DNA from: Lentisphaeria bacterium
Lineage (GTDB): Bacteria; Verrucomicrobiota; Lentisphaeria; Victivallales; JAADHT01
Assembly: GCA_015486135.1 (NCBI GenBank)
Contig: WFSE01000009.1
Span: 1-53,466, forward strand
Length of the DNA stretch: 53,466 nucleotides
Direction: 5' to 3'
Within the stretch, counting starts at the first letter, position 1. Each line of letters opens with the position of its first letter. Shown here one piece after another: positions 28 through 52,790 of this stretch. The notes below the pieces were generated by a model. That model was not told the DNA's origin. It made no database searches and saw only the letters and a list, made by a program, of their open reading frames with translations. The position numbers were made by a program, and so were the translations under genes.

Positions 28-178
28 TCCGGCTTTCGCGAAATTGGCAAATGCCTCAAATCGTTAGTCGTCTCCAAGGTTTCTGGGAGGTCCCTTACCA
101 AAGCCTTGGAGACGACACTGCTAAAAAGGAATTTAACCCTATGAAAATAAAGCACTTGCCAATTATTCAGTGAGCCCT
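28..178 (+). repeat. Dispersed hairpin repeat family, near full-length copy (R1)
   Basis: AATTGGCAAATGC...GCACTTGCCAATT outer arms; perfect 13-bp inner arms GTCGTCTCCAAGG (67-79) / CCTTGGAGACGAC (104-116); conserved CACTGCTAAAAA...TTAACCC segment; ends ATTATTCAGTGAGCCCT. Confidence 0.85.
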
Positions 179-890
179 ATTTAGTGGGGCTTAGTATGTG
201 GTGGCTTCCTATAACCGCTGCGGTTTCGATGCGTAGAGTCCAAGGGCCTAGAGAGAGAGGGATTGCGCCGGCCTTCGCTAGAAGCTTCTCCTCCGATTCC
301 GTGAATCCCCCCTCGGGGCCGACAATCCACGCAACATTCGTGTCGCGTTCGCTATGTTGTGGGGGGGGATTCGCTTCGCGCGTGTTCGTTCGCGTGGCAC
401 CGAAGTACGATTGTTTCATGGATTTCAGGCGGACTAGCATTTCGGAGAAGGGGATGGTTTTGTTTTCGATTTCCGGGAACCAAGGGTTGCCTGATTGTTT
501 GCATCCCTCGATTATGATGCGCCGCATCCTTTCGAATGCCGTTTTGCCGCTGGGTTTCGCCACTGAACGTTCGGTGGCTATCAAGTGGACGCTCCACACT
601 CCCACTTCGGCACATTGTCTGAGCATGTGGTCTAGAGCGTGTTTCGCAGGGGCTGCGGAGAAAAGGCGTAATTTAAGGCGGGGACGCGGAACCCGCGAGA
701 TTTTTTCCACGAAGAGTTCGCCATCCTCTCCAACTGCGGCTTCGCCCAAGGCACCATGGCCATCGAGGAGTATCACTCTGTCACCGGCGGACGCTCTTAG
801 AACTTTTCTTAGATGCGTCGATTCGCGTTGCGGAAAGGAATCCCGCGGAAGCGTGCCGGTATTGATGGTTTCGCAATAGAAGCGACGCAT
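177..890 (-). CDS. rsmE: 16S rRNA (uracil-1498-N3)-methyltransferase, RsmE family
   Basis: MRRFYC start, C-terminal IVGPEGGFTESE and LGPWTLRIETA motifs of the RsmE SPOUT family. Confidence 0.93.
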   Translation of the reverse strand: MRRFYCETINTGTLPRDSFPQRESTHLRKVLRASAGDRVILLDGHGALGEAAVGEDGELFVEKISRVPRPRLKLRLFSAAPAKHALDHMLRQCAEVGVWSVHLIATERSVAKPSGKTAFERMRRIIIEGCKQSGNPWFPEIENKTIPFSEMLVRLKSMKQSYFGATRTNTREANPPPQHSERDTNVAWIVGPEGGFTESEEKLLAKAGAIPLSLGPWTLRIETAAVIGSHHILSPTK

Positions 891-1007
891 CTACCGCTCT
901 CCTGAGATTGAGCCAACCAAACCATGGACGGCGTGTTATTAGGGCACTGTCCGTATCAATTCCACACAGGGGCCGACGGAGGATCCGCGGTCCGCGGGCT
1001 GGATGAA

Positions 1008-2120
1008 TCAGAGGCTTTCAACGACAAGGTCACCAACCTCGCTCGTGGAATATCCCATTTTACCTGCAGCCATGGATTTGAGCTTCGAGCCAGTGACTTT
1101 CGCAACCGCTGTTTCCACGGCTTTTGCCGCTTCGCTCTCTCCGACTTCGTCGAGTAGCATTGCGCCGGAGCATATTGCGGCCATTGGATTTATGACTCCC
1201 ATTCCAGTGTATTTGGGGGCGGATCCGCCGATTGGCTCGAACATACTCACACCATTTGGATTGATATTGCCACCAGCCGCTATACCCATCCCACCTTGAG
1301 TCATTGCTCCAAGATCGGTTATGATGTCGCCGAACATATTGCCCGTGACTATGACATCGAACCACTCCGGATTTTTGACCATCCACATGCAAGTGGCGTC
1401 GACGTGGCAGTAGTCGGTTTTAACTTGTGGGTAGTCTTCGGCTATTTCATAGAACGCGCGGTCCCAAAGGTCGTAGACGTAGGTGAGGACGTTTGTCTTG
1501 CCGCAGAGCGTCAGTTGGCCTATTTTTCCGGCAGCCTTGTCCTTTTCGCTCAGGCCCTTCCAAGGGGTGTCCGCCGTGTGGCGTTTCATGGCTTGCTCGA
1601 ATGCGTAGCGAAGGCAACGCTCGACTTGGACGCGGTTGTAAACCATTGACTGGACGGCCACCTCGCCTTTTGTCCCTTTCATTGTGAATCCACCGATTCC
1701 CGTGTACAGCCCGCCAGTGTTTTCGCGGACTACGAGGTAGTCGATATCTTTTGGGGTCTTTCCAGCCAGCGGTGTCTCTACGCCTGGAAATAGCTTCACC
1801 GGACGGAGGTTTATATATTGGTCCAATTCGAATCTGAGTTTGAGGAGGATGCCTTTTTCCAAAATACCTGGTTTGACATCCGGATGCCCGATGGCCCCTA
1901 GAAGAATGGCATCGAACTTCTTCAGGGTGTCGGCGGCGCTTTCGGGGAGGACTTCTCCAGTGTTTAGATAGCGGGTGCCGTCCCAGTCGAACGTCTCCAT
2001 GTCCAATTCGAACCCGAATTTATCGGCGGCGGCCTTCAACACCTTTACCGCTTCCGCTGTTACTTCGGGACCTGTGCCGTCACCAGGCAATACCGCTATT
2101 CTGTGTGTTTTTCCTGCCAT
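1008..2120 (-). CDS. leuB: 3-isopropylmalate dehydrogenase (isocitrate/isopropylmalate dehydrogenase family)
   Basis: [21 protein letters not shown]-terminus, [35 protein letters not shown]; start placed at internal ATG of the longer ORF. Confidence 0.88.
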
Positions 2121-2184
2121 TGTAGTGCATCCTCGATAAATAGCCGACGCGGCACTTGTGGCCACGGGGACTGACTCCAAAAAA

Positions 2185-2260
2185 TGGTGCGCCCACCAGG
2201 ACTCGAACCTGGGACCCAGTGATTAAGAGTCACTTGCTCTACCAACTGAGCTATAGGCGC
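2185..2260 (-). tRNA. tRNA-Lys (anticodon CTT), CCA encoded
   Basis: Minus strand GCGCCTATAGCTCAGTTGGTAGAGCAAGTGACTCTTAATCACTGGGTCCCAGGTTCGAGTCCTGGTGGGCGCACCA folds as a cloverleaf; anticodon loop CTCTTAA. Confidence 0.96.
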
Positions 2261-2445
2261 TTGAAAGAGGGGCAATATGCTACGGCTAAATATTTTTTCA
2301 AACTTTGTTTTCGCTGAAATTCAAGGCAATATGGCGGTGGGCGAGATCGTTTGACAATTATGGTGCGGCGCGTCATGTTCGAGTGTGGCGATGTCGCCAG
2401 CCAGTTGTCTTTCAAAGAGTTGTTACGGGTGATTGGAGGTCTTCG

Positions 2446-3966
2446 ATGTGCGGTAACGGACGAGAGATTGCGAAAATAGCCGTTGCGGCAGCTTTGGCGG
2501 TTCCGTCTACCGCCGCAGTTCTTCATGCGGCGGACGAGCGCCCCAATATTTTATTCTTCGAGGTGGACGACTTGATGTATCGGTTTGTCGGAGCCTTCGG
2601 GGGGAAGTTTATGGTGACGCCAAACATCGACTCGCTTGCCAGAAACGGAGTTTATTTTTCAAACGCTGTTTGCCAGGGAATGATGTGCGGTCCCTCGCGC
2701 AACTCCCTGATTACAGGCTTATATCCCCATAATCTCGGCTTTTACAGAAATGGGCAGATGGGAGACCTCAAAAAGGGAATATGGTCGATTCCCGCAGCGG
2801 TGAAACGCGCCGGATACACAACAGCATGGGTTGGAAAATGCCATGTTCATCCACCACGCACGAAACGCGGCGAGTCCGTGGCTAAGGCGCTGGAGAGTGA
2901 AATGGGGTTCGACTATGCCGTGGCTTCCCTGGGACGCGCCATGCTAGCCAATCGGGCGTTGCGGGGGAAGGAGGTCAAGGACGATGTCTATTTTAGTTTT
3001 CTGAAGAAACGCGGCTTATGGGAGACGTATTTGAACGACTGCAAAACCAAGGCGAAGGTGACATCATTGCCGGAAGATGCCTACCTGGACGGCTTCTACA
3101 CGAATACCGCTATCGAATGGCTTGGCAATTTGGACCGTCGGAAGCCCTTTTTCCTGTGGGTGAATTTGTCCTGTCCTCACGGTCCCTATGACGCGCCCCA
3201 AAAGTACCACGACCTTTACAAGGGCAAGAAAATTCCGCCTCCTTTGACCAATCGCTTCGGGGAGGATATTCCCGAGGGATTACTTAAGGACAATAGATCG
3301 GCTCATAACAATGCGGTGGAGGAGCATAGGCGCGGCATGGCGGCAAATGTCTCGTTTGTCGATGCGATGTTGGGCAAAGTGTTGGCGAAATTGGAGGCTA
3401 TGGGCGCTAAGGACGACACCGTGATATTTTTCTTTTCCGATCAAGGCGTGTTTATGGGAAACCACGGCAGGTTCCACAAGGGGTCGGTATTCAACGAGAT
3501 AACTAACGCCTGCCTGGTTATTTCATATTCCAAATTCAGAAAGGGGGTGGTGGACAGGCATCCTGTGGAGTTGATGGATATTGACGACACCGTCTTGGAT
3601 TTGGTTGGTGCGTCCAAGGAGGGCAAACGCATGTTGTTCGGCGCAAGCCTTCTGCCAATTCTCACGGGCAATGGCGAGTACAAACGTAAATACGCGTTCA
3701 GCGAGATCGAGGGATTCCAGTCATGTTTCGACGGGCGCTACCGTTATATCGCCAACGAAGAGAAGCCACTATTGTTCGATTTGACATCCGATCCAGGCGA
3801 GATGAAGAACATAGCGGAGGAGCGTCCCGAACTAGCTGAAAGGATGCGCAAGGCCACGGAGGAGTGGCTCGTGAGAACTGGAGCGCCATTGCCGGCGAGT
3901 TGTTTGAAAAAGGCTGGCAACCTCGAAAAGTGGCGGAGGCCTGTTCCAAATACGCGCGGACAATAG
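2446..3966 (+). CDS. Sulfatase (formylglycine-dependent), exported
   Basis: N-terminal signal-like sequence, RPNILFFEVDD metal site, CGPSR (C-x-P-S-R) catalytic signature, SDQGVFMGNHGRFHKGS. Confidence 0.92.
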   Translation: MCGNGREIAKIAVAAALAVPSTAAVLHAADERPNILFFEVDDLMYRFVGAFGGKFMVTPNIDSLARNGVYFSNAVCQGMMCGPSRNSLITGLYPHNLGFYRNGQMGDLKKGIWSIPAAVKRAGYTTAWVGKCHVHPPRTKRGESVAKALESEMGFDYAVASLGRAMLANRALRGKEVKDDVYFSFLKKRGLWETYLNDCKTKAKVTSLPEDAYLDGFYTNTAIEWLGNLDRRKPFFLWVNLSCPHGPYDAPQKYHDLYKGKKIPPPLTNRFGEDIPEGLLKDNRSAHNNAVEEHRRGMAANVSFVDAMLGKVLAKLEAMGAKDDTVIFFFSDQGVFMGNHGRFHKGSVFNEITNACLVISYSKFRKGVVDRHPVELMDIDDTVLDLVGASKEGKRMLFGASLLPILTGNGEYKRKYAFSEIEGFQSCFDGRYRYIANEEKPLLFDLTSDPGEMKNIAEERPELAERMRKATEEWLVRTGAPLPASCLKKAGNLEKWRRPVPNTRGQ

Positions 3967-4137
3967 GGGAGGGGGGAATTCTTCCGATTGACTTGACAAC
4001 CGCGGACTTGGCGCGAGATTTAAACATATCTTGAAGAAATTGGCTTGGGGTGTTCCGTTGAAGTGGTTGTATCCCTAAGTTTATACGTTCCGGACTTTTT
4101 CCGAGTCGGACGGGGCATGGGGTTTGCTTGCTAGGGA

Positions 4138-5025
4138 GTGTGCGGTTTGGGTCATTGTTTCGACAGGAAATTCGTGGATTTGCACACGCACAGCGTGGCT
4201 TCCGATGGTACGTTGACCCCAACGGAGATAGTGGAGTTAGCCGACAAAATAGGTTTGGCGGCTGTGGCGTTGGCTGATCATGACACCGTTTCCGGTGTGG
4301 CGGAGTTCTTGAAAGCGGGAGCGTCCTGTCCTGGATTGGAGGTTGTGCCAGGAGTTGAGATTTCCACCGACTTCGACCACAAGGAACTTCATATAGTTGG
4401 TCTATTTGTTGATGGCGACAACATACCTTTGAACGAACTTTTGCGCGAAATACGCAGCAACCGCAATAAGCGCAACGACCAACTTGTGGAGAAATTGCGT
4501 GGGCTGGGATTTGGTATAACTATCGAGGAGCTTCTCGAGGAGGCTGGAGGCGAGTCGATAGGACGTCCAATCGTAGCGAAAATCCTTGTGCGCAAAGGCT
4601 ATTTTTCGGAGCCACAGGAGGTGTTTGACAAATGCCTTAACCGGAACGGACCGGCGTACTGCAAAAGAATTCTGCCATCACCGGTTAGGGCGATAGATGC
4701 GATTCATGCGGCGGGAGGTTTGGCCATTTGGGCGCATCCACTCCACCGCGGAGGCAGAGACCGCTCATTTATGAGAAGAGTGCTCAAGGCGGTTGTCCCA
4801 TTGGGGCTGGATGGTGTCGAGGCCTATTACACCCAATTCACGCCGGAACAGACTCGGGCGGTTTTGGACGTGGCTGCGGAATTCGGGCTTGCCATTTCCG
4901 GCGGCTCCGATTTCCACGGCGCCAACCAGGCGGGTGTCGAGCTGGGCTCTGGGCGAGGAGAGCTTGAAGTCACTGTGGAGGTGTTCGATAATTTGCGTGA
5001 AATACGTACGGGTATCCCGTCGTAG
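4138..5025 (+). CDS. PHP domain phosphoesterase (3',5'-nucleoside bisphosphate phosphatase-like)
   Basis: FVDLHTHSVASDGTLTPTEIV...ALADHDTVSG...WAHPL...SGGSDFHG; GTG start assumed. Confidence 0.88.
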   Translation: MCGLGHCFDRKFVDLHTHSVASDGTLTPTEIVELADKIGLAAVALADHDTVSGVAEFLKAGASCPGLEVVPGVEISTDFDHKELHIVGLFVDGDNIPLNELLREIRSNRNKRNDQLVEKLRGLGFGITIEELLEEAGGESIGRPIVAKILVRKGYFSEPQEVFDKCLNRNGPAYCKRILPSPVRAIDAIHAAGGLAIWAHPLHRGGRDRSFMRRVLKAVVPLGLDGVEAYYTQFTPEQTRAVLDVAAEFGLAISGGSDFHGANQAGVELGSGRGELEVTVEVFDNLREIRTGIPS

Positions 5026-5048
5026 GTTATTTCTAAGGAGGTTTGGTT

Positions 5049-5879
5049 ATGAATTCGAAAAGAATCTTTGCGGGACTGGTTGTCTGTGCGGTTTTCGCGC
5101 TTTTCCAGGTGGTTTTGGCCGGAGACGACGCATCGTTGAAAGGGAAAGAGCTTTCCAACTCCGAAAAGGCGAAGATGCTCCTGGAGAAGGCTAGAAAGAC
5201 TATGAAGAGGATGAAAGGTTATTCTGCCACAATGCTCACCGAGAATCTAACCGGGAAATCAATGACATCCAAATATTACGCCCTGAATAATCCCGATGGC
5301 ACCGTTTCCATGAGAATGGAGACGGCGCATATTCCCCCGATGGTATTTATCACCAATAGTCAAGGCCACTGGTATATCGTTGGAGATGTAGCCATTAAAC
5401 TTAATTATATGACAAAAATGCAAGCGAACGCCATGGCGAATATTGGGCAGTTGCCGAAAGTCCAGGATGACGTTACGTATTCCGTTGAGAACGGCAAGAT
5501 AAATGATGTGGAGTGCTTTGTGGTAACGACCAAAATGTCTGACAAGCGCATAAAGGCCGCCGCGGATTTTATCCTGAAATCGCTTTCCGAGGATATGAGA
5601 AAAATAGTTCGGAAGAACAAGATGGATTTGACGGCGAATATCCCAGTGATGACAAAACTGTATATAGGTAAAGACGATTTGTTTGTTTATTCGGTGGAGC
5701 AGTACAGCAAAGCTGGGACGAGAATATCCCGGACAACCTACAAGGATGTGAAATTGAATGTCGCTCCAGATAAGCACCTGTTTGAAATCCCTGCGGACAA
5801 AAAGGTGAAAGTGGCTAAGACGATAATGGACCTCCCTAAGATAATGATGGGAGCTTCGAAAGAAAAAGTGAACAAGTGA
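5049..5879 (+). CDS. Secreted/periplasmic LolA-like outer-membrane lipoprotein-sorting family protein
   Basis: Signal peptide, YSATMLTENLTG..., C-terminal VAPDKHLFEIPADKKV; overall LolA-like pattern. Confidence 0.55.
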   Translation: MNSKRIFAGLVVCAVFALFQVVLAGDDASLKGKELSNSEKAKMLLEKARKTMKRMKGYSATMLTENLTGKSMTSKYYALNNPDGTVSMRMETAHIPPMVFITNSQGHWYIVGDVAIKLNYMTKMQANAMANIGQLPKVQDDVTYSVENGKINDVECFVVTTKMSDKRIKAAADFILKSLSEDMRKIVRKNKMDLTANIPVMTKLYIGKDDLFVYSVEQYSKAGTRISRTTYKDVKLNVAPDKHLFEIPADKKVKVAKTIMDLPKIMMGASKEKVNK

Positions 5880-5904
5880 AAAGGTCCGTTGCGCAGAGAC
5901 TCCG

Positions 5905-5972
5905 GAGCCGGCGCTACAAAAAGACGCGGCATAATAAAGGATAAAGCGCTTGCCAATTATTCAGCAGGCCCT
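5905..5972 (+). repeat. Dispersed repeat family, truncated copy (R2)
   Basis: AAAGCGCTTGCCAATTATTCAGCAGGCCCT right end. Confidence 0.7.
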
Positions 5973-6055
5973 AACATAAGACACTGGGCATCGCCACCGA
6001 TTGGCGCCGCCTTGAAAAGTTGTCCGTTTTATGCAACACGGAAGGAGGAGATCGC

Positions 6056-6325
6056 ATGGTAACCGCCGTGGTACTCATCAACGTCGAGAGGTCGGAGCTG
6101 AAGAATACAGTTGACTCGCTATTGGAAGTGGATGGAGTGACAGAGGTTTACACCGTTGCCGGAGAATACGACTTGGTAGCGATAATTAGAGTTTCCGACA
6201 ACGAGCGCCTGTCGAGCATCGTCGCCGATGAGCTGACCCATAACTTCAAGGGCATAACACATGCGAAGACTCTTTTCGCTTTAGGGGCGCATTCCAGATA
6301 CGACTTGGAGAAGATATTCGGCTGA
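6056..6325 (+). CDS. Stand-alone Lrp/AsnC ligand-binding (RAM) domain protein
   Basis: MVTAVVLINVERSELKNTVDSLLEVDGVTEVYTVAGEYDLVAIIRV; RBS ggaggag; no HTH domain. Confidence 0.85.
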   Translation: MVTAVVLINVERSELKNTVDSLLEVDGVTEVYTVAGEYDLVAIIRVSDNERLSSIVADELTHNFKGITHAKTLFALGAHSRYDLEKIFG

Positions 6326-6327
6326 TT

Positions 6328-10513: not shown

Positions 10514-10602
10514 AAGCCGTTCCCCAATCGGTCCGGATTACCACCAACACGTCTTTTAGCGACTGCCAGTAATAAACGGCTGTGATTGATGTTTTCAAGA
10601 AG

Positions 10603-10735
10603 CGCAAGTGTCTCAAATTGAGAGGAAAACACTAGCCATCTCCAAGGGAGGCGGGAGCATCACTCACAAAACCTTGGAGATGACACCACTAAAAACAGAT
10701 TTAACCCAATAATAATAAAGTGCTTACCAATTATT
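10603..10735 (+). repeat. Dispersed repeat family, near full-length copy (R3)
   Basis: CATCTCCAAGG/CCTTGGAGATG perfect inner arms; ACACCACTAAAAACAGATTTAACCCAAT; GTGCTTACCAATTATT. Confidence 0.82.
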
Positions 10736-10757
10736 GTCGGGGCTTGGTTGAGGATGG

Positions 10758-11261
10758 CTATGCCCTCTTGGCCAAAAGTTTTCGGTAGATAGCGGTGTTC
10801 TGAGCGGAAAATGTTACGAAAATTGTTTTTTCCGGGAGGTCTTCCGTCCAATTAGAGACCGTGTCTACCGCTATCGAGGCGGCTTCTTCAGGTGGGTAAC
10901 CGAAAATTCCCGCGCTGACGCATGGGAACGCCACTGACCGACAACCGTTTTCAGCGGCTAATCGGAGACTGTTTTTGTAGCAAGAGCGTAATTTTTCGGA
11001 CTCGCCGGCGCGACCTCCGCGCCACTTGGGGCCGGGAGTGTGTATTACGTAGCGGCATGGAAGATTGTACGCCTTCGTTATAACCGCCTCGCCAGTGGGG
11101 CAACCACCTATTTTCAGGCATTCTTCCAGTAATTCAGGTCCGGCGGCCCTATGTATGGCCCCATCGACTCCACCCCCTCCGAGTAAACTCTCATTAGCGG
11201 CGTTGACGATAGCATCCACCTCCAAATCGGTGATGTCCGATTGAGAAATTTCGATTTCCAT
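10758..11261 (-). CDS. Macro domain protein (ADP-ribose / O-acetyl-ADP-ribose hydrolase-like)
   Basis: DITDLEVDAIVNAANESLLGGGGVDGAIHRAAG, YVIHTPGPKW, VAFPCVSAGIFGYP. Confidence 0.94.
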   Translation of the reverse strand: MEIEISQSDITDLEVDAIVNAANESLLGGGGVDGAIHRAAGPELLEECLKIGGCPTGEAVITKAYNLPCRYVIHTPGPKWRGGRAGESEKLRSCYKNSLRLAAENGCRSVAFPCVSAGIFGYPPEEAASIAVDTVSNWTEDLPEKTIFVTFSAQNTAIYRKLLAKRA

Positions 11262-11278
11262 AGATCACACCTCCTAGT

Positions 11279-11347
11279 TAGGACTCACTGAACAATTGGC
11301 AAGAGCTTAATTGTCATTGGGGTAAAATCCCTTTTTAGCGGGTTCGT
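11279..11347 (-). repeat. Dispersed repeat family, right half, inverted orientation (R4)
   Basis: Minus strand CCGCTAAAAAGGGATTTTACCCCAATGACAATTAAGCTCTTGCCAATTGTTCAGTGAGTCCT. Confidence 0.78.
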
Positions 11348-11600
11348 CGCTTAATCGCAAGCCCTCCATTTTATCCGCCATGGCCTTGGTGAAGGCGGAA
11401 GCCCGGAGGGCGGCGGAGAATCGGCACGTTTCCTCCTTTTTCAGCAAGCCCTGGCATGGGAAGATATAGGCGATGGGGCCAGCGGTCAAGCGATATCCGC
11501 TCGAAGATGTGTCGTCCCCAGTCGGGGAGGGGGCTTTTGAACGGGCCTTCTCGCCTCCTTTGACTTGCCTTCGCTAAAAAGAAGCACGATACATTGCGAA

Positions 11601-11631
11601 GCCGGCGCTTGGCAATTATTCAGGAGGCCCT
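11601..11631 (+). repeat. Dispersed repeat family, right-end fragment (R5)
   Basis: GCGCTTGGCAATTATTCAGGAGGCCCT. Confidence 0.6.
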
Positions 11632-11643
11632 ATAGTACCCATT

Positions 11644-28491: not shown

Positions 28492-28595
28492 GGGAACAAT
28501 ATACTCCCTTAGGAAGAGGAAAGAAAGGAGTGCGCTTGGCGAACTCCCGGGTTCGTGCCCGCTGAACAGGTTTTGCGGAGAAACACATGAACGAG

Positions 28596-28681
28596 TGCTC
28601 CCAAAACTTTGGAGGCGACACCGCTAAAAACAAGCTTAACCCAATGGGAATAAATTGCTTGCCAATTATTCAGTGAGCCCT
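28596..28681 (+). repeat. Dispersed repeat family, right half (R6)
   Basis: CTTTGGAGGCGACACCGCTAAAAACAAGCTTAACCCAATGGGAATAAATTGCTTGCCAATTATTCAGTGAGCCCT. Confidence 0.82.
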
Positions 28682-31770: not shown

Positions 31771-31800
31771 TCTCCAAACACAGGAGAACGGCGGTGCGGT

Positions 31801-31955
31801 TCCGGCTTTAGCGGAATTGGCAAGAGCCTCAAAACGCTAGTCGGTTCCAAGGGGTTTAGGGGCGTCACTCCCAGAGTCTTGGAGATGCCATCCCCACTAA
31901 AAACAAGATTAACCCCCGTCATACTCAAACACTTGCCAATTATTCAGCAGGCCCC
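31801..31955 (+). repeat. Dispersed repeat family, near full-length copy (R7)
   Basis: GGAATTGGCAAGAGCCTCAAAA ... TTCCAAGG ... CTTGGAGATGCCATCCCCACTAAAAACAAGATTAACCC ... CACTTGCCAATTATTCAGCAGGCCCC. Confidence 0.85.
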
Positions 31956-34399: not shown

Positions 34400-34593
34400 A
34401 GGGCTCACTGAATAATTGGCAAGCGCTTAATTTTCACTGGGTTAAGCCTTTTTTCAATGGTGTCATCTCCAAGCACACGTTCGTGTGTTTTGAATGCGCC
34501 CCTCGCTCCGCTTGGGCGCCACGAGAGCGATCCTCTCAAACCCCTTGGAGCCGAGTAGCATTTTGAGGCACTTGCCAATTCCGCGAAAGCCGG
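34400..34593 (-). repeat. Dispersed repeat family, full-length inverted copy with internal extra segment (R8)
   Basis: AGGGCTCACTGAATAATTGGCAAGCGCTTAAT...GTCATCTCCAAG...CCCCTTGGAG...GCACTTGCCAATTCCGCGAAAGCCGG. Confidence 0.85.
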
Positions 34594-34729
34594 GAACGGG
34601 CCATTGGCGGCGTTAATTTCGCCTAGGAGTGCGAAGCATCCTTCCGTTCGCTCCGCGAACCCTGTCGGGCTTTGCGGAAGGACTCATTGCCTAGCCACTA
34701 ACCCGTTCTCGACTTTTTTAGCAAGCCCT

Positions 34730-34852
34730 AATGTAGGGGACGGTTGAGTAATTGCCAAGCGATCTACGGCGATTGAATTGAAAAGATGTAGGGGGCCTGA
34801 GTGTTCGCCCTAATTAGTGTTGATTAGTGTCCATTCGTGGTTCGAAAATCTT
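34730..34852 (+). repeat. Composite repeat R9 (short form); 41-bp exact copy of R10 3' end
   Basis: AATGTAGGGGACGGTTGAGTAATTGCCAAG...AATTAGTGTTGATTAGTGTCCATTCGTGGTTCGAAAATCTT (34812-34852). Confidence 0.85.
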
Positions 34853-40826: not shown

Positions 40827-40845
40827 CCCTACTTCATTTGTAGGG
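40827..40845 (-). promoter_or_regulatory. Palindromic operator upstream of the metal-efflux operon
   Basis: CCCTAC-TTCATTT-GTAGGG; shares ATTTGTAGGGATT with 32081-32093. Confidence 0.6.
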
Positions 40846-40965
40846 ATTGTGCAAGCTGTTTGGGGGGATTGCCCGATTTAGCAAGTTTCATGTCCACTCC
40901 GCGGAGTTTCGATTCCGGGTGCGTGTCCGTCTTCCAGCGCTCCTCCGTCTCCCTAGGCCGCCTTT

Positions 40966-42522: not shown

Positions 42523-42549
42523 TTATGCCGATTTTTTTTGTAATCCCTC

Positions 42550-42763
42550 AATGTAGGGGGCCGTTGAGCAATTGACAAACCCTTTACGGAGGTTGAATAG
42601 AAAAGGGGTAGGGGCGAACCTGTGTGTTCGCCCGTGTGCGGGGGAGGGTATGGCGAAGCCACGGAATGGGGGGGATTACAGAACCACGAATGAACACGAA
42701 TAGACACGAATGGGGATTCGGAAATTAGTGTTGATTAGTGTCCATTCGTGGTTCGAAAATCTT
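42550..42763 (+). repeat. Composite repeat R10 (long form) with inverted CACGAAT repeats
   Basis: AATGTAGGGGGCCGTTGAGCAATTGACAAAC...ACCACGAATGAACACGAATAGACACGAAT...AATTAGTGTTGATTAGTGTCCATTCGTGGTTCGAAAATCTT (42723-42763). Confidence 0.85.
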
Positions 42764-42887
42764 ATTTTGGTGGGGTAATGGGATTACCCCGCGGAAGTCG
42801 CGCTGTCTTGCAATGAATCCGGGGTCGGCGTATAGTTTGTCTTGGTTCTTTACGCTATGCGCACCAAATATATTTAGGGGCATTTCC

Positions 42888-43937
42888 ATGAAGGCGAACA
42901 GTGCGGATATCGCGGATTTCTACAGGCAGATGTCGTTGTTGCTGAAATCGAATCTTCCGTTGCCGGAGTCGATGAGGCAGTTGGGGCTGAACTTGGACAA
43001 GGCTGATTTGCGCTCCGTACTGCTGGAGATGTCGAAGATGGTTTCCAAGGGGGAAGGGGTGGCGGATGCTATGAGTCGCTATCCTAAATACTTTCCCAAG
43101 TTCCATATCCGGATGGTCGATGCGGCTGAGATGAGCGACATGCTTCCGGAGGTTTTGCAAGAGATCGCCGACATCGCCTACTTGGATTCGCGGTTGGCGC
43201 GCATGGTTCGGGAGATATCGGTATACCCGTTGTTCGGGATAAACTTGGCGTTTCTTATTTGGTTCGGGCTATTCGTGTGGGTGATTCCCGAATTCAAGCC
43301 AGTATTTAAAAATCTGCTTTGGGGCGAGCCGTTGCCTAGGCTGACGGACTGGACGATGATGTTGAGCGATTTTCTCGTCGCCCACCGGACCGGGGTGTTC
43401 GCATGTTGGGTGTTGTTGGTTGTGTTTCTGTTGTGGCTTTTCTCCGGGGGGGTGTTGGCGAGGCGTATGTTCATAAGGGTAATTTCCACGTTTCCAGGGG
43501 CGGGATTGATTTACTCCAACCTCAACATGGCGAGATTTTGCGGGATTTGGTCGTTGCTCGCCCGCCGGAAGGTGGACGTGGTGGAGTCGATGGAGACAAT
43601 CGCCCCCCTGATGGACGACTGGCGGGTGGCGGCGGCGCTATCCAGGGTGGGGGATGCTGTTCGGAGGGGCGAGCCCTTGGTGGCGGCGCTTAGGGAGGAG
43701 AAGAGGATATCGGGTATGCTTCCCCTGACGGTGAGGCATGTGCCGGAGAAGGATTTGCCGGACGAGTTGGCGAATCTCTCGCTTTTGTTCCGGGAACGGG
43801 CGGCGTCCGCGACGCGGAAAGCGGGCGTAATTTGGGCCGTGGTCTTTTTCGTGTTCCTAGTGTTATCGGTTGGGATAACTATTCTTAGCTTGTTCATGCC
43901 GTTTATTAGTTTTTTTAAAATGTTGGGAGGGTGGTGA
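42888..43937 (+). CDS. Type II secretion / type IV pilus inner-membrane platform protein, GspF family (copy 1)
   Basis: DIADFYRQMSLLLKSNLPLPESMRQLG, GEGVADAMSRYPKYFPKFHIRMVDAAEMSDMLPEVL; three TM segments. Confidence 0.9.
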   Translation: MKANSADIADFYRQMSLLLKSNLPLPESMRQLGLNLDKADLRSVLLEMSKMVSKGEGVADAMSRYPKYFPKFHIRMVDAAEMSDMLPEVLQEIADIAYLDSRLARMVREISVYPLFGINLAFLIWFGLFVWVIPEFKPVFKNLLWGEPLPRLTDWTMMLSDFLVAHRTGVFACWVLLVVFLLWLFSGGVLARRMFIRVISTFPGAGLIYSNLNMARFCGIWSLLARRKVDVVESMETIAPLMDDWRVAAALSRVGDAVRRGEPLVAALREEKRISGMLPLTVRHVPEKDLPDELANLSLLFRERAASATRKAGVIWAVVFFVFLVLSVGITILSLFMPFISFFKMLGGW

Positions 43938-43938
43938 T

Positions 43939-44018
43939 AGTGAGGGTTGGCTTGACGCTATACAGCAAGCTGGAGAGGATGCCTTAGGCGGTGTCGACCG
44001 GTCGAGTTGGCACTGTGT
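43939..44018 (+). pseudogene. Decayed remnant of the 5' end of the third GspF-like gene
   Basis: Alignable at nucleotide level with 45168-45247; stop codon TAG after ~15 codons. Confidence 0.7.
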
Positions 44019-44116
44019 CAGCGGAGCCGCGTTATATTGCAATCGGGGCTGGTTTGGCGTATATTCAATCTTGGTTCTTTACGCCATGCGCGCCAAGCGC
44101 GCTCAGGGGAATTTCC

Positions 44117-45166
44117 ATGAAGGCGAACAGCGCGGATATCGCGGATTTTTACAGGCAGATGTCGCTATTGCTGAAATCGAATCTTCCGTTGCCGGAGTCG
44201 ATGAGGCAGTTGGGGCTGAACTTGGACAAGGCTGATTTGCGTTCCACGCTCCTCGATATGTCGGAGGGGGTCTCCAAAGGGGAAGGGTTGGCGGATGTTA
44301 TGAGGCGCTATCCGGAATACTTTCCCAAGTTCCATGTCCGGATGATCGAGGCGGCTGAGAGGAGCGACATGCTTCCTGCGACTCTCCACGAGATCGCCGA
44401 GATCGCCTATTTGGACTTGCAGTTGGCGCGCATGGTGAGGGAGATATCCATATATCCGTTGTTCGGGATGGGCTTGGCGTTTCTTCTCTGGTTCGGCCTG
44501 TTTGTGGGGGTGGTTCCACAGTTCGGTCGGATTTTCGATGAGATGTTGGAGGGCGAGCCGTTGCCTTGGCTGACGGATAAAATAATGTCGTTGAGCGATT
44601 TTCTTGTCGCCCACCAAGCCGGAGTATTGGCGTGCTGGGCGTTGTTGGTGCTGTTTCTGGTGTGGCTTTTCTCCGGGGGGGTGCTGGCGAGGCGTATGTT
44701 CATAAGGATAATCTCCAAGTTGCCCGGGGCGGGGTCGATTTACTCCAACCTCAACATGGCGAGATTTTGCGGGATTTGGTCGTTGCTCGCCCGCCGGAAG
44801 GTGGGCGCGGTGGAGTCGATGGAGGCAATAACCCCCTTGATGGACGACTGGCGGGTCGCTGCGGCGCTATCCAGGGTGGGAGATGCCGTTCGGAAGGGCG
44901 AGCCGCTAGTGGCGGCGCTTAGGGAGGAGAAGAGGATATCGGGCATGGTGGCGCTGACGGTGAGACATGTTCCGGAGAAAGATTTACCGGACGAGTTGGC
45001 GAATCTCGCGCTTTTGTTCCGGGAACGCGCGGCATCCTCGACGCATAAGGCGGGCATAATTTGGGCGGTGGTCTTTTTCTCCCTCCTCATCGTTTCGGTA
45101 GGCATTACCGTTCTCAGCTTGTTTTTGCCGCTGATAAGCATCATAAAAAAGCTTGGGGGGGGATAA
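44117..45166 (+). CDS. GspF family platform protein (copy 2, tandem paralog of copy 1)
   Basis: Nearly collinear with 42888-43937 product over the full length. Confidence 0.9.
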   Translation: MKANSADIADFYRQMSLLLKSNLPLPESMRQLGLNLDKADLRSTLLDMSEGVSKGEGLADVMRRYPEYFPKFHVRMIEAAERSDMLPATLHEIAEIAYLDLQLARMVREISIYPLFGMGLAFLLWFGLFVGVVPQFGRIFDEMLEGEPLPWLTDKIMSLSDFLVAHQAGVLACWALLVLFLVWLFSGGVLARRMFIRIISKLPGAGSIYSNLNMARFCGIWSLLARRKVGAVESMEAITPLMDDWRVAAALSRVGDAVRKGEPLVAALREEKRISGMVALTVRHVPEKDLPDELANLALLFRERAASSTHKAGIIWAVVFFSLLIVSVGITVLSLFLPLISIIKKLGGG

Positions 45167-45168
45167 TC

Positions 45169-46329: not shown

Positions 46330-46346
46330 GGGTACTGAGAGGAATC

Positions 46347-47429
46347 ATGGACAAGGAACCGCACGAATTTGTCGAGGAGATTGTTCGGAAGGCGTTGGAC
46401 GAGAACGCCAGCGACATTTTCTTCCTCCCGGGAAGCGACTCCTACATAGTGAGGATGCGGGCGGCCGGAACGCCGAGGCGCGTGGCCGAGGTTCCATTGG
46501 ATTTCGGAAGCATGTGCGTCTCCCATATAAAGTCGCTTGCGAGTCTCCTCACCTACCGGACGAAGATAGCGCAGGACGGCGCGATACGCGGCGGAATTGG
46601 CGGCGGAATTGGCGGCGGAATTGGCGGGGAGGACGCCGCGAAGTTCGGCGATGCGGAGCTGAGGGTGTCGACATTTCCGACGACCCTGGGGGAACGGGTC
46701 GCCATCCGCGTGGTCCGCGAAGCCGACGCCGAATGGGTGTTGGACGACTTGGGTTTCCAGCCGGAGGCTAGGGAGAGGGTGGGGGCGATTTTGGCGAAAC
46801 CTTCCGGGCTATTGGTCCTCACCGGACCGACAGGATGCGGCAAGACCACCACGATATACGCCATGGTGCGGGATTTGCTGAAAAGCTCCCACGATCCAGC
46901 GGCCGTTATCACTATCGAGGATCCAGTGGAAAGAAATATCAAAGGCGTCTCTCAGACTTCCGTTTCCAAGGGAGGCGACGAATGGAACTACGCTATGGCG
47001 CTCAGGGCGGCGCTGAGGCAGGATGTCAAGACGCTGGTTATCGGCGAAATGCGCGACAAGGAGGTCGTCAAGGTCGCCTTGGACGCGGCGCTTACCGGCC
47101 ATCGGGTGATAACGACCTTCCACGCCGGCGATATTCCTTCCGTCTACGCTCGGATCCTCCACCAGGGATTCGAGCCTTTTCTCGTGGCGGCGGCGGTATC
47201 AGGAGTCGTGACGCAGAGGCTTGTCCAATCCGCCGACGGCGCGCGGCGGATACCGGTTGTCGCGGCGCTCGATGCGGACGATGAATGGAAGGACTTCATA
47301 GCGTCCGGACCGACGTTGCGCGATATCCGCGTGGCGGTCAAAGGGCGTTCGGGCGCGGATTTGGCGACGGAGGCGGAGTCAATGGAGAAGGCGGGTGTCG
47401 TGGCACCCGGCTGGCGGTTGAGGTTGTGA
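46347..47429 (+). CDS. Secretion ATPase, GspE/PilB/PilT family
   Basis: LLVLTGPTGCGKTTTIYAMV Walker A, ITIEDPVERNIKGVSQ Asp box, DVKTLVIGEMRDKEVVKVALDAALTGHRVITTFHA Walker B/His box. Confidence 0.94.
   Translation: MDKEPHEFVEEIVRKALDENASDIFFLPGSDSYIVRMRAAGTPRRVAEVPLDFGSMCVSHIKSLASLLTYRTKIAQDGAIRGGIGGGIGGGIGGEDAAKFGDAELRVSTFPTTLGERVAIRVVREADAEWVLDDLGFQPEARERVGAILAKPSGLLVLTGPTGCGKTTTIYAMVRDLLKSSHDPAAVITIEDPVERNIKGVSQTSVSKGGDEWNYAMALRAALRQDVKTLVIGEMRDKEVVKVALDAALTGHRVITTFHAGDIPSVYARILHQGFEPFLVAAAVSGVVTQRLVQSADGARRIPVVAALDADDEWKDFIASGPTLRDIRVAVKGRSGADLATEAESMEKAGVVAPGWRLRL
46591..46626 (+). repeat. In-frame 12-bp tandem repeat x3 in the ATPase gene
   Basis: GCGGAATTGGCG x3 encoding GGIG units (RGGIGGGIGGGIGGED). 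Confidence 0.9.
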
Positions 47430-47431
47430 GG

Positions 47432-47797
47432 ATGGGAAAGCATTTGAAATTCAGATGGATGTTGATGGCGGAGGTGATTTGCGCGCTGATGTTTTTCGCT
47501 GTCACCTTGGCCGCCTTTACCAGCCTTTTGGAATATGCGATGAAAGCGGAGGCCATGGCCGTGGCGGAGAACCGGGCGATTCTCGTGCTTGACAACACAT
47601 TGGAAAGAATCGCGGTTGCGGGGGACGATTTGTCCCGCGAGCGGGTGAACGCGATTTTTATGGACGAATACCACAAGAGCGGTCTGGACGGAACGGATAT
47701 AGTGAAGCCGAGTCGCGAATTCCGCGGCGGAAAGGCCATCCTTCTTTTCAAAAACCGCAGGAAACGCACCATTGCCGAGGTTAAGGTGGACCTATGA
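47432..47797 (+). CDS. Small TM protein, pseudopilin-like, in the secretion operon
   Basis: N-terminal hydrophobic helix with Glu (WMLMAEVICALMFFAVTLAAF); position between ATPase and prepilin. Confidence 0.55.
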   Translation: MGKHLKFRWMLMAEVICALMFFAVTLAAFTSLLEYAMKAEAMAVAENRAILVLDNTLERIAVAGDDLSRERVNAIFMDEYHKSGLDGTDIVKPSREFRGGKAILLFKNRRKRTIAEVKVDL

Positions 47798-48270
47798 ACA
47801 GACCTAAAATACGAGTGTTTACGCTGATGGAGGTGCTCTACGTTATTGGCGTTCTCGTCTTGCTATTCGCCACTACCGGTTATTTTCTGTTCAAGGGGGC
47901 GCGGGTGTGCCGTCAATGCGCCACCAAGGCGTTCGCCTCGCAGCAATTGCTTGTGCTCAAGGGCCAGTGGAGGAAATTTGTCCGCGCTTCCGATGGATTG
48001 TTTTTCAAGGTTGTGGACGGCGGATCGGGATTTTCAACGAACGCCGGGAAAGTGGTGTTTTCGGATGGAAGCGTGGTGTTTACCTTCCCTACCGGCGAGA
48101 AAAGTTCATACAAGCTGGCGAAGGGGATGTCCGTCGAATTCGCGGTGGAGTGCAATGACACTGGCTCCGTGGCGATTATGAACATCTCTATGCCTGGGAG
48201 GGGACCTATGTTCGAGCGCCGCGCTAGAATCGTGGCGGCGCCGGGAGCTATGGAGGGTGTCGCGAGATGA
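47794..48270 (+). CDS. Prepilin-like protein (type IV pilin N-methylation-type N-terminus)
   Basis: RVFTLMEVLYVIGVLVLLFATTGYFLF. Confidence 0.7.
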   Translation: MNRPKIRVFTLMEVLYVIGVLVLLFATTGYFLFKGARVCRQCATKAFASQQLLVLKGQWRKFVRASDGLFFKVVDGGSGFSTNAGKVVFSDGSVVFTFPTGEKSSYKLAKGMSVEFAVECNDTGSVAIMNISMPGRGPMFERRARIVAAPGAMEGVAR

Positions 48271-48479
48271 AAGACAACGGGGAGAAAGGGATGGCGTTGC
48301 TGGTGGTCATGTTGATCGCCGCCATGTTGGCGGCGGCCTTGGCCGCGGCGGTGCTCGCGCTTCATGCGCTTATGGCCCAGAATCAACTGGCTAAAAAAGA
48401 CTTGCGGACCCATGAAAAATCTATAAACGAACGGCAAGCCGATTTGTCCCCTCTCGAGCGCCCCATCCCGGTGGAGTGA
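48267..48479 (+). CDS. Short pseudopilin-like protein (GspK/PilX-like N-terminus only)
   Basis: EKGMALLVVMLIAAMLAAALAAAVLALHALMAQ; ends directly at repeat R11. Confidence 0.55.
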   Translation: MKDNGEKGMALLVVMLIAAMLAAALAAAVLALHALMAQNQLAKKDLRTHEKSINERQADLSPLERPIPVE

Positions 48480-48480
48480 T

Positions 48481-48538
48481 TCTCCTAAAACCCTTGGAGC
48501 GGACTATTTTTTTGCACTTGCCAATTCCAGGAAAGCCG
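48481..48538 (-). repeat. Dispersed repeat family, left half, inverted (R11)
   Basis: TCTCCTAAAACCCTTGGAGCGGACT...GCACTTGCCAATTCCAGGAAAGCCG, compare R8. Confidence 0.75.
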
Positions 48539-48586
48539 TAAACGTAAGAAGAAAAACGCTGTAAATGGGTGCGTTAAATCCAATTG

Positions 48587-48786
48587 TTTTCACCACGAAG
48601 CTCACAAAGCTCACGAAGGTTTTCCATCTCCGTCGACGGAGATGGAAAAGGCTTTCATGGGAGATAAGTCGATAGCGTCGGGATCGCAATTCTCTTCGGC
48701 GTTGTCGCATTGCCTTTACCCTAACATGCCGTTTCCGCGGAGCGGAAGCGGCATCTTCGTGAGCTTCGTGTCCTCTGTGGTGAAAA
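48587..48786. repeat. MITE-like long hairpin element with 30-bp perfect internal palindrome
   Basis: TTTTCACCACGAAGCTCACAAAGCTCACGAAG ... inverse at 48755-48786 (about 27/32 match); TTTTCCATCTCCGTCGACGGAGATGGAAAA at 48620-48649. Confidence 0.8.
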
Positions 48787-48936
48787 TCCCCTTCCTACCG
48801 AGCTCCGCCCCCCTCCGCCTTCCGTAAATTTCCCGCCTTCAGTAACCTTATGGCGGGACAAGGCGGCGGGACATGTTGGGCTTTGCGAAAGGACGGGACG
48901 CTCCGCTAGCATGTCCCCGTGGTCGGGGTGCGCACG

Positions 48937-50934
48937 TCACTTGAATGCGACAGCCTCGCGCGATATCAGCTTTTTGCCGTATTTTTCGATTCCTTTCGCC
49001 AAGTTGTCGAAAAGATCCGCGGTTCCCTGTATCTTTTTCTTGATAAATGGTGTCAAGTATTTGGACATGCTTTTTGTTCTGGCACGTATGATGGCGGCGC
49101 GTCTTTTGCAGATTCCGGAGAGTTTTTTATAGCTTTTGGTGGCTTGATTAAACGCCATCTTGTTCCAAGCTTTACGTTTCGAGTCGTTTATGCCTGGGGA
49201 AAGCATGCGGTTAAGCTTTTTCGTGGCGGTGTTGTGTGCCGATAGCCATGATTTCACGTCAGAGGCGACATATTCGCATACTATGGGTTTATAGGGAGCG
49301 CGTCCCCACTTGACAGCCAGCGCCAGTATGGCCTCAAAACTTTTCTTGTCGGCTTCAATCTGTTTCGTCAGTTTTTTGTAGAGCTTCCATTTCATTGGAA
49401 CCCATTTCACGTCCGGAGCGATTCTATACGCGAACCGTCTGACTGTTTGGCAATTTGTCCCCTTTGTCGTCCAGTTGGCTTTTTCCACTTTCATTGTCGC
49501 GTATGTCGCTATGCCAACCACTTTCCCCCCCTTCGTGACGACCGGGCTGCCGCTGTTGCCTGGGACGAACTTGGCCGAAACCTCGATTCTATCGGGACCG
49601 ACTCCCAGGACTTTGCCGTAGAGAGTGGTGCACACTCCAGCTCCCCCGCTGTTGCCTAGAACGGCGACGGGGGCTTCGGCCGCGACTTCCGCGCCTGGAG
49701 TCAATGCGTCCGGACCATTGTATTTGGGAAGGGTGAATCTAATAATGTCGCGGGACGCGCTAACCTGCATGGGGCCTGGTTGCAATGCGCGGTTTGAAAG
49801 TGTTTTCGCCTTGAAGCTATCGCATCCGCTGACGACGTGTTGGTTGGTGTATAGGTAGTATTTGCCGTCGGAGTCCTTGACGATGAAGCCACTGCCGGCA
49901 GCTTCGGCGGATGTCGTGATTGTGACGAGAGCTTTGGATACCGCGTTGAATGGCAGGTCCAGTTCTTTTTCAACCTCCTTGGCCAGCTTTCGTTCATCCA
50001 CTTTGAGCTTTTCAGGTTTATTGTCGTTTTCCGCTGTCTTCTCCGAGGTAGGGGTGCTTTTTGTCGGCTTGGGGCGTTCCGACGGATGGACATCCTGCGC
50101 TCGGAGTTCTGCCATTAGTTTATCGAGTTTTTCATCGCTGTACTCGTCGTGTCCTATGCGGAGGGTTTCCAAGTGTTTGAGTCGGGATACAGGGGCTAGG
50201 TCAAGGTCTTTGTTGCCAGGCAATTTGAGCCCAGTGAGTTGCGCGTCTCCCCGCAGGAATTCCAGCGATTTTATTTTGAGATCTCTTATGTCAAGGCGTT
50301 TGACGTTTAATCTGCCCAACTCGGCAAGCCCGCTTGTGTCCTTTATCAATTCCTTGGAGGATAGTGTGATTTCCTTAGCGCTTCCCAATGTTTCCAAAAA
50401 ATTCAAGTTGTCAACATCTTCGGGCAGGCCTAACGTTAGCTTGTCGACGCGCAATCCGTACAATGAGGTTAGTGCATAGTTGTCTCCTCTGATTTCCAGT
50501 TCGCTTAAATTGGATATTTTCGTTAGAAAGCTCAAGTCTTCCAAGCTCTTGCAACGGAGAAGAGAGAGGGATTGCAAGTCTTTGAGTTGCTCCCAGCCTA
50601 TGGCCGACCAATCGACTGAGTCGCAAGAATAGAAGCTCAACTTAGATCCAATAAGGTCCGCCACCTCTGCTATCGAGAGTATGGGGGCTCTGGCAATCTG
50701 CAGATCCGTGGACTTGTCGTCATACCTGATTGCACCTATAAGGCATTCGGGGCTATAGCCGGGATTGTCTATCATCATTATCCTGTTGAATTTGTCAAAG
50801 AAGGGATTGGACGTTTTCCTATGAGAACGCGCCTGCGACGGTATGGCCATAGTTAGCCCGGTCGCGGCGATGATAGTTAACGCGGTGATTTTCAATCCTG
50901 AAGATGTTGGCAGCCGCCAATGCGTGGTAGTCAT
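48937..50934 (-). CDS. Secreted trypsin-like serine protease with N-terminal leucine-rich repeats
   Basis: Signal peptide; LRR units (LEDLSFLTKISNLSELEI, LKHLETLRIGHD); GSGFIV..YYLYTNQHVVSG and FVPGNSGSPVVTKGGKVVGIATYA. Confidence 0.82.
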   Translation of the reverse strand: MTTTHWRLPTSSGLKITALTIIAATGLTMAIPSQARSHRKTSNPFFDKFNRIMMIDNPGYSPECLIGAIRYDDKSTDLQIARAPILSIAEVADLIGSKLSFYSCDSVDWSAIGWEQLKDLQSLSLLRCKSLEDLSFLTKISNLSELEIRGDNYALTSLYGLRVDKLTLGLPEDVDNLNFLETLGSAKEITLSSKELIKDTSGLAELGRLNVKRLDIRDLKIKSLEFLRGDAQLTGLKLPGNKDLDLAPVSRLKHLETLRIGHDEYSDEKLDKLMAELRAQDVHPSERPKPTKSTPTSEKTAENDNKPEKLKVDERKLAKEVEKELDLPFNAVSKALVTITTSAEAAGSGFIVKDSDGKYYLYTNQHVVSGCDSFKAKTLSNRALQPGPMQVSASRDIIRFTLPKYNGPDALTPGAEVAAEAPVAVLGNSGGAGVCTTLYGKVLGVGPDRIEVSAKFVPGNSGSPVVTKGGKVVGIATYATMKVEKANWTTKGTNCQTVRRFAYRIAPDVKWVPMKWKLYKKLTKQIEADKKSFEAILALAVKWGRAPYKPIVCEYVASDVKSWLSAHNTATKKLNRMLSPGINDSKRKAWNKMAFNQATKSYKKLSGICKRRAAIIRARTKSMSKYLTPFIKKKIQGTADLFDNLAKGIEKYGKKLISREAVAFK

Positions 50935-50961
50935 AGCTTTTATCCTTCCTTGTTTCAGACC

Positions 50962-51068
50962 CGCTGAATAATAGATTAGAGCTTAACTGTTATTGAGAGA
51001 TGCCTGTTTCCAGTGGTGTTATCTCCAAAGTTTTGGGAGGGATGATTCCCAATCCCTTGGAGGCGACT
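50962..51068 (-). repeat. Dispersed repeat family, inverted copy (R12)
   Basis: GCTGAATAATAGATTAGAGCTTAACTGTTATTG...GTGTTATCTCCAAAGTTTTGGGAGGGATGATTCCCAATCCCTTGGAGGCGAC. Confidence 0.75.
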
Positions 51069-51092
51069 TTCATGTTATGCTGGGGGCGCATA

Positions 51093-52433
51093 TCACTTGA
51101 ACACGACGGCGTCGTGCGATGTCAGCTTCTTGCCGTATTTTTCTATTTCTTTTGCCAGACTGTCGAAAAGATCTGCGTTGTCCAGCATCTTTTTCTTGAG
51201 AAATGGCGTTAGGCATTTGGACATGCTTTTTATCCTGGCGCGTACGATGGCCGCGCGTCTTTTGCAGATTCCGGAGAGTTTTTTATAGCTTTTGGTGGAT
51301 TGGTTCAATGCCATTTTGTTCCAAGCTCTACGTTTCGATTCGCTAATACCCCGGGAAAGCACGCGGTCTAGCTTTTTCATAGCGGTGTTGTGCGCCGATA
51401 TCCATGATTTCACGTCCATGGCGGTGTGTTCGCATGCCATGGGTTTGTAGGGAGCGCGCACCCACTTGACGGCCAATGCCAGGATGGCGTCCAAACTTTC
51501 CTTGTCGGCGTTAATCTGTTTAGTCAGTTTTTTGTAGAGTTTCCATTTCATTGGAACCCATTTCACATCCGGAGCGATTCTATAGGCGAACCGCCTTACC
51601 TTTTGAAATCGTGTCCCCTTTGTCGTCCAATCGGCCTTTTCCACTTTCATTGTCGCGTATGTCGCGATTCCGATGACTTTTCCGCCTCTCGTGACAACGG
51701 GGCTGCCGCTGTTGCCCGGGACGAACTTGGCTGAAACCTCGATTCTATCGGGACCGACTCCCAGGACTTTGCCGTAGAGAGTGGTGCACACTCCGGCTCC
51801 GCCACTGTTGCCTAGCACGGCGACGGGATCTTCGGTCGCGGCTTCCGCGCTTGGAGCAAGTGCGTCCGGACCGTTGTATTTTGGAAGGATGAACCTAATA
51901 ATGTCTCGGGACGCGCTGACTTGCATGGGGCCTGGTTGCAACGTGCGGTTTGAAAGTGTTTTCGCCTTGAAGCTATTGCATCCGCTGACGACGTGCTGGT
52001 TGGTGTACAGGTAGTATTTGCCGTCGGAGTCCTTGACGATGAACCCGCTTCCCGCCGCCTTGGCCGAGGTGGTGATTGTGACTAGAGTTTTCGATATCGC
52101 GTCGAATGGCAGGTTCAGTTCTTTTTTTATTTCCTCGAGCAGCTTTTTCCCATCCGCTTCCGGCTTTTCGTCTTTATCGTTGTTTGAGGCTTTGTCGTTT
52201 TTTGGAGCGGCCTCTGTTGTCTCGCTAGTATCAACTTTCAGCGGGGAGGGATTGTCGTTCTCGCGGAGTTCCGCCACTTCTTCCGGAGATTTGTCAACGA
52301 GGGAGGTGGACGTTTTCCTGTGCGAACGCGCTTGCGACGGTATGGCCATAGCCAGTACGATTACGGCGGCGATGGTTGACATGGCGATTTTCAATCCCGA
52401 AGATGTGGCTAGCCGCCAATGCGTAGTGGTCAT
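51093..52433 (-). CDS. Secreted trypsin-like serine protease, paralog lacking the LRR region
   Basis: Same signal peptide (MTTTHWRLxTSSGLKI), same protease and basic C-terminal region as 48937-50934. Confidence 0.85.
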   Translation of the reverse strand: MTTTHWRLATSSGLKIAMSTIAAVIVLAMAIPSQARSHRKTSTSLVDKSPEEVAELRENDNPSPLKVDTSETTEAAPKNDKASNNDKDEKPEADGKKLLEEIKKELNLPFDAISKTLVTITTSAKAAGSGFIVKDSDGKYYLYTNQHVVSGCNSFKAKTLSNRTLQPGPMQVSASRDIIRFILPKYNGPDALAPSAEAATEDPVAVLGNSGGAGVCTTLYGKVLGVGPDRIEVSAKFVPGNSGSPVVTRGGKVIGIATYATMKVEKADWTTKGTRFQKVRRFAYRIAPDVKWVPMKWKLYKKLTKQINADKESLDAILALAVKWVRAPYKPMACEHTAMDVKSWISAHNTAMKKLDRVLSRGISESKRRAWNKMALNQSTKSYKKLSGICKRRAAIVRARIKSMSKCLTPFLKKKMLDNADLFDSLAKEIEKYGKKLTSHDAVVFK

Positions 52434-52618
52434 TTCATCTCTCCCTTGTTTAGTCCCAAGTCAGTGGTTGGTTCTACGGTTGGGCTTGTCTTCAAGTCTG
52501 TAATTCCACGCTCCCTAGTGGGATTGCCCGGATTTACGGATATGAAAGAGGCAAAAGCCGAACCCGTCGCTACACGCGTGGAATATACCTTCCACCTATT
52601 TGAAAAACAAGCTGGGAT

Positions 52619-52716
52619 TGCTGAATAATTGGCGAGTTGTCATTATTGGATTACGATTTTCTCCTAAAGGCGTTGTGTTAAAGGTTTAATTTGAGGCATT
52701 TGCCAATTATTCAGCA
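52619..52716. repeat. Dispersed repeat family, copy with perfect 15-bp terminal inverted repeats (R13)
   Basis: TGCTGAATAATTGGC (52619-52633) / GCCAATTATTCAGCA (52702-52716). Confidence 0.8.
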
Positions 52717-52790
52717 GCTCCCGAGGTGTGAGATAAAGATATTGGACTATTGGGGTCATACATACGCTATTGGCTTTTATTGCGAATATG

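Follow-up and report, generated by a model that had tools for sequence, protein, structure and literature searches.

A high-copy miniature inverted-repeat transposable element in a Lentisphaeria bacterium, with probable mobilization in trans by an IS5-type transposase

Prokaryotic miniature inverted-repeat transposable elements (MITEs) such as Chunjie, Correia, QMITE2 and Nezha are short and non-coding, have inverted ends and target-site duplications, and are mostly intergenic (PMC10969869). Chunjie of Geobacter uraniireducens, for example, measures 178–235 bp and is represented by 38 conserved and 57 partial copies (PMC10969869). The dispersed hairpin repeat described here was found in a 53,466-nt contig of an uncultured Lentisphaeria bacterium (WFSE01000009.1, contig C9 of genome G000), the whole of which, from base 1, was analyzed and is referred to below as the window. 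It resembles the above MITEs in all these features, and also in the abundance of truncated copies and in the excess of copies over autonomous parents. Unlike them, it has its own sequence, 6–7-bp duplications of the TANNTA type, asymmetric ends and interchangeable palindromes in its loops. With ERIC, for which up to 711 copies have been reported in Photorhabdus luminescens (PMC10969869), and with other palindromic intergenic repeats, it has in common a palindromic structure, an intergenic location and a high copy number.

We interpret this repeat, with a probability of roughly 0.9, as a lineage-specific, high-copy MITE that an IS5-type (NF033578) transposase has most likely mobilised in trans. 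It is identified as a MITE because it is bordered by target-site duplications and because its ends are common to a transposase-bearing insertion sequence. An earlier note, made from the letters of the window, had proposed a MITE/REP-like or structured RNA element; the duplications and the shared ends speak for the MITE, while the REP-like and structured RNA parts of that proposal are disfavoured. Compared with GTDB, IMG/VR and Rfam, the MITE family appears to be new, its kind being well known, and a literature search for the end sequence returned only unrelated papers. The interpretation accounts for the densest repeat of the genome as well as for many contig breaks. It also ties MITEs of a new lineage to a widespread but little-described insertion-sequence end (cyanobacteria, Nitrospirota, Bacteroidota), and the paired subfamilies with swapped hairpins provide a usable case for the evolution of palindromic MITEs.

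Structure, target sites and genomic distribution of the element

Alignment of the copies together with their flanks revealed that the intact unit spans approximately 245–380 nt, from GGGCTTGCTGAAAAAGTCG (left) to CTTGCCAATTATTCAGTGAGCCC (right), and is bounded by direct repeats. Lengths of 246–261 nt recur, with longer forms of up to 380 nt. The unit consists, in order, of GGGCTTGCTGAAAAAGTCG, a left arm of about 115 nt, a AATTGGCAAG...CTTGCCAATT region and the terminal TATTCAGTGAGCCC. Its terminal inverted repeats (GGGCTTGCTGAAAAA / GGGCTCACTGAATAA) are imperfect, with 12 of the 15 outer bases identical. The unit is short (below the MITE limit of approximately 600 bp), non-coding and devoid of a transposase gene. 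The repeat family recognized in the earlier note is real and far above chance, but the unit delimited there comprises the right half only and is about half the true length. When the copies were stacked with their flanks, homology extended far past its left boundary: AATTGGCAAG, taken for an outer arm, is internal, and the left arm ending in GGGCTTGCTGAAAAAGTCG lies beyond it.

Among 55 distinct copies of full length for which both flanks were available (an earlier sample comprised 35 copies), 15 had a perfect target-site duplication of 6 bp and 8 had one of 7 bp. When the right flanks were re-dealt in 1000 shuffles, the mean number of six-bp matches was 0.6 (maximum 5). The 6-bp duplication is mostly TANNTA, its second base being A and its fifth T in 15/15 cases. 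Two copies, located in contigs C12 and C22, differ at only 5 of 250 positions, although they have different flanks and are each bordered by a perfect duplication (TAGGTA and TAACGTA), indicating that some transposition was fairly recent; the remaining sampled full-length pairs show at most 91% identity. Direct duplications require transposition, which argues against an element conserved for its transcript, as a structured RNA or in cis-regulation (as a leader, terminator or processing site), and multiplied secondarily, an explanation that we consider highly improbable.

The family extends through the rest of the host genome (2.98 Mb, 195 contigs, 91% complete). When a covariance model was built from the right half, at least 108 right-half copies in the host matched it with ≥98 bits (108 of 108 scored candidates), and 30 relatives, among them three members of the same family, gave no match. 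In the host, at least 40 strong matches were also obtained with a 176-nt piece of the first window copy. With up to 2 mismatches allowed, 152 left ends were counted in the host (0 for a reversed-pattern control). Among 137 genomes of the order the left end is abundant only there (115 matches with up to 1 mismatch, compared to 3 in G003, a genome of a sister genus). The right-end motif was found neither in GTDB contigs nor in IMG/VR, collections from which records of or near the host may be excluded. Contigs C9, C11, C53, C67 and C160 have their first or last base within a copy of the element (137 identical bases are common to C9 and C160), indicating that the repeat family limits the assembly.

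In 770 kb of sampled sequence, biased toward copy-rich contigs, 88 merged copies account for 1.8% of the DNA; extrapolation to about 340 copies per genome is biased upward, since the contigs were picked from matches, and is not claimed. As judged from crude open reading frame (ORF) calls, the coding overlap of these copies is 14%, compared to 87% for random placement. The previous statement that copies occur only between genes is mostly correct (coding overlap below 10% in 67/88), but fails for the 10/88 with an overlap above 50%; the reported occurrence of the repeat in both orientations was confirmed by dispersed copies on both strands. Gaps between convergent genes contain 26 copies, compared to 16 expected from the same gene calls. 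This mild excess would follow from a loss of insertions close to promoters, and would also suit a structured RNA. The orientation relative to tandem neighbouring genes is, however, not fixed (19 same, 12 opposite), and a 20-kb stretch rich in copies has no more terminator-like sites than its shuffled versions. Moreover, the repeat matches no known Rfam family, and a scan of the window at gathering thresholds yielded only a tRNA.

Insertion sequences with the same left end and the proposed mobilization

Exact matches to the left-end 21-mer are present in 73 contigs from other species, most of them cyanobacteria and Nitrospirota. There, the 21-mer bounds complete insertion sequences, L115 (1717 bp) and L154 (1760 bp), which encode transposases of the NF033578 type (transpos_IS5_1, IS5 family; 411 and 427 bits, respectively, at a cut-off of 275). 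The duplication flanking L154 (TATCTA) is of the same 6-bp type as that of the host repeat. MITE-size elements with this end were identified in Symploca, Cyclobacteriaceae and a metagenome-assembled genome of Prochloraceae, with duplications TACTTA, TATTTA and TAAATA. Thus, the host repeat has a left end identical to those of L115, L154 and the Symploca and Cyclobacteriaceae elements, and differs from NF033578 insertion sequences in the lack of a transposase gene and in its divergent right end.

The sister-genus genome G003 contains several NF033578 fragments, one of which is placed about 200 bp from the same end, on the same contig. In the host, a decayed remnant was found in contig C123 (9472–9839; L164 1310–1690, minus strand). 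It is N-terminal, truncated and frame-broken, and adjoins a repeat copy; its far end reads TCAGGACTTGTTGAAATATTC. The earlier observation that no transposase ORF is associated with the repeat holds locally, but the parental type can be named.

We propose that an NF033578-type transposase, derived from an insertion sequence ending in GGGCTTGCTGAAAAAGTCG, bound the non-coding units at both ends and mobilized them in trans, with duplication of a 6- or 7-bp target (TANNTA or TANNNTA). The surviving insertions would be those between genes, insertions into genes having probably been purged rather than avoided, and the autonomous element would later have decayed in the host, with one remnant remaining. 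The copies, ends, duplications and remnants are observed in the sequences, from which we infer this transposase type as the mover.

Several observations weigh against this interpretation. Perfect duplications are missing from 32/55 intact copies. Neither an intact NF033578 transposase nor a PF13586 domain was found in the host genome, as covered by the 91% complete assembly; multi-copy insertion sequences are often missing from such assemblies. The exact match to the insertion sequences concerns the left end only, since the right end differs (GGGCTCACTGAATAATTGG), being similar but not identical. Finally, duplications in the IS5 family are usually 2–4 bp long, so that the 6–7 bp of the host repeat are longer, although L154 also has 6. 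NF033578 belongs to the IS5 family by NCBI naming, a placement that is tentative for the ISfinder group of the parent because the duplications exceed those usual for classical IS5 members.

Mobilization by another transposase family with similar ends (e.g. ISAs1, or the IS4 and IS1634 types of the host) seems unlikely. An ISAs1-family element in Microcystis (L119) also starts with the left-end 21-mer, and IS4_1 and IS1634 genes are present in the host. However, L119 has a poor second end and no 6-bp duplication, and only the NF033578 type agrees in ends, duplication and presence in both the host and the sister genus. The PF01609 insertion sequences of the host (IS1634 and IS4_1 types) were rejected as parents, as they do not carry the ends of the element. 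One element copy is located approximately 270 bp beyond the host IS4_1 ORF.

A repetitive extragenic palindromic (REP)/BIME system moved by a RAYT (Y1) transposase would be in keeping with the Y1_Tnp genes of the genome and with the smaller palindromes that occur in the loops and sometimes stand alone. We nevertheless find it barely credible, since the neighbourhood of the best Y1 gene (L225) contains neither the ends nor the loop modules of the element, and at the remaining Y1 loci the ends are matched in degenerate form at best, near a partial match (L226). REP units are not known to leave duplications. The host unit, with its length of 245–380 nt and its 6–7-bp duplications, is unlike REP units, which are palindromes of 20–40 bp (PMC3733652). 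The Y1 (RAYT-like) loci L225 and L226 are located in contigs C23 and C64 of G000, respectively; sequence of the GGGGGCAGGCCC type and a stand-alone CCTCCGTCGCCC palindrome border L225.

Folding, covariation and loop palindromes

The unit is predicted to fold into a two-armed, cruciform-like shape, both as RNA (z-score −6.5) and as DNA (z −8.0). The strong predicted RNA folding is a point in favour of a structured RNA, but the DNA folding is equally extreme, as with any palindrome. In the right half (57 copies) the stems are conserved, and a covariation score as high as that observed was reached by 58/500 shuffles. Two-sided changes are absent from the outer stem, 32/57 copies have a mismatch at one inner pair, and RNAalifold returned 5 pairs without compensatory changes (covariation term of approximately 0). 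The covariation of inner arms previously reported is thus near chance, which also counts against a structured RNA, and the maintained fold deduced from it is unsupported. Compensatory changes reside instead in the left arm, which the first reading had missed.

In this arm, 84 cells with two-sided changes were observed, compared to 34±6 in shuffles and at most 29 in slid versions, a result that a structured RNA would readily accommodate. Much of this covariation separates two subfamilies, and pairs 19–103, 24–98 and 56–65 vary within one subfamily. On the other hand, hybrid copy L010 joins the left strand of one subfamily to the right strand of the other, with arms that do not match, indicating that pairing is not needed in every copy; this speaks against conservation of a transcript structure. 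The left-arm pairing may reflect either selection or template-switch correction of imperfect palindromes, alternatives that the data do not separate.

The loops of longer copies carry smaller palindromes, e.g. CCTTCCGTTCGCTTTGCGAACCC...GGGCTTTGCGGAAGGAC and CACACGAACGTGTG, which are found mostly inside elements and only rarely elsewhere. It appears as if hairpin loops were invaded or replaced by a second-order repeat. A more speculative and rather doubtful extension is that the element grows and changes by exchange of whole hairpins: the left arm would stay paired by recurrent compensatory changes, the loops would take up small palindromes also found on their own, and the hairpin (as DNA extruded in replication or as a transposition substrate) would be selected or template-switch-corrected. 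Palindromes of about 45 bp (CCTTCCGTTCGC...GCGGAAGG and others) are present in the element loops of L039, L180, L181, L186 and L188, and small palindromes stand alone at L053:5332, L178:18600 and L188:263.

Copies and neighbouring features in the window

The window contains 11 copies or stubs of the repeat (Table 1), identified by means of two search models (the covariance model of the right half and a longer profile) together with end-motif and repeat-family searches. Eight were matched by the covariance model with E values from 9e-33 to 8e-7. Most of the copies listed in the earlier note were recovered with the models, including that at 28–178, which is truncated by the contig start, but those at 5905–5972 and 11601–11631 proved to be only right-end stubs. 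The diverged relatives suspected at 34730 and 42550 correspond in part to the true left end of the copy at 34401–34728, and in part to a separate repeat.

Table 1. Copies and stubs of the repeat in the window (CM, covariance model of the right half).
Position	Strand	Feature	Evidence and remarks
1–177	+	Left-truncated copy	CM match 44–177, 145 bits; left side cut by contig start; CTTGCCAATTATTCAGTGAGCCC at 155–177 forms the right end of a complete right half
5940–5973	+	Right-end stub, GCGCTTGCCAATTATTCAGCAGGCCCTA	Repeat family D6; weak CM match, E 0.0066
10604–10745	+	Right-half copy with degraded right end	CM match, 75.7 bits
11281–11451	-	Short 171-nt copy, both ends, rearranged interior	Paired ends, sequence; left end GGGCTTGCTGAAAAAGG at 11451, right end at 11281; CM match 11281–11381 (-)
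11600–11632	+	Right-end stub	Repeat family D6; CM match, E 0.012
28568–28681	+	Partial right half	CM match 28536–28680, 63.6 bits; profile match; merged locus
31782–31955	+	Right half and piece of left arm (CGGTGCGGTTCCGGCTTTAGCGG)	Profile match, 1.2e-38; CM match 31817–31954, 103 bits
34401–34728	-	Full-length copy, both ends	CM match 34401–34578; left end 34710–34728; extra small palindromes in loops; flanks TACATTA / TACATTT (6/7 match)
48473–48546	-	Mid-element fragment	Longer profile, E 1.5e-14
50954–51082	-	Diverged right-half copy	CM match 50957–51082, 54 bits
52614–52723	-	Shortened diverged copy, end motifs on both sides	CM match 52614–52706, 40 bits, E 2e-7

The separate repeat is a pair (34733–34852 and 42550–42763) in which GTAGGGG.CCGTTGAG.AATTG.CAA blocks precede an identical sequence of 41 nt, AATTAGTGTTGATTAGTGTCCATTCGTGGTTCGAAAATCTT; a partly inverted copy is located at 42674–42711. 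A plasmid search with one window gene gave no match. The window also contains two pairs of neighbouring paralogous genes, encoding T2SSF (type II secretion F) proteins (42738–43937 and 43991–45166) and trypsin-like proteases (48937–50934 and 51093–52433). Both pairs include DNA blocks that are 79–88% identical.

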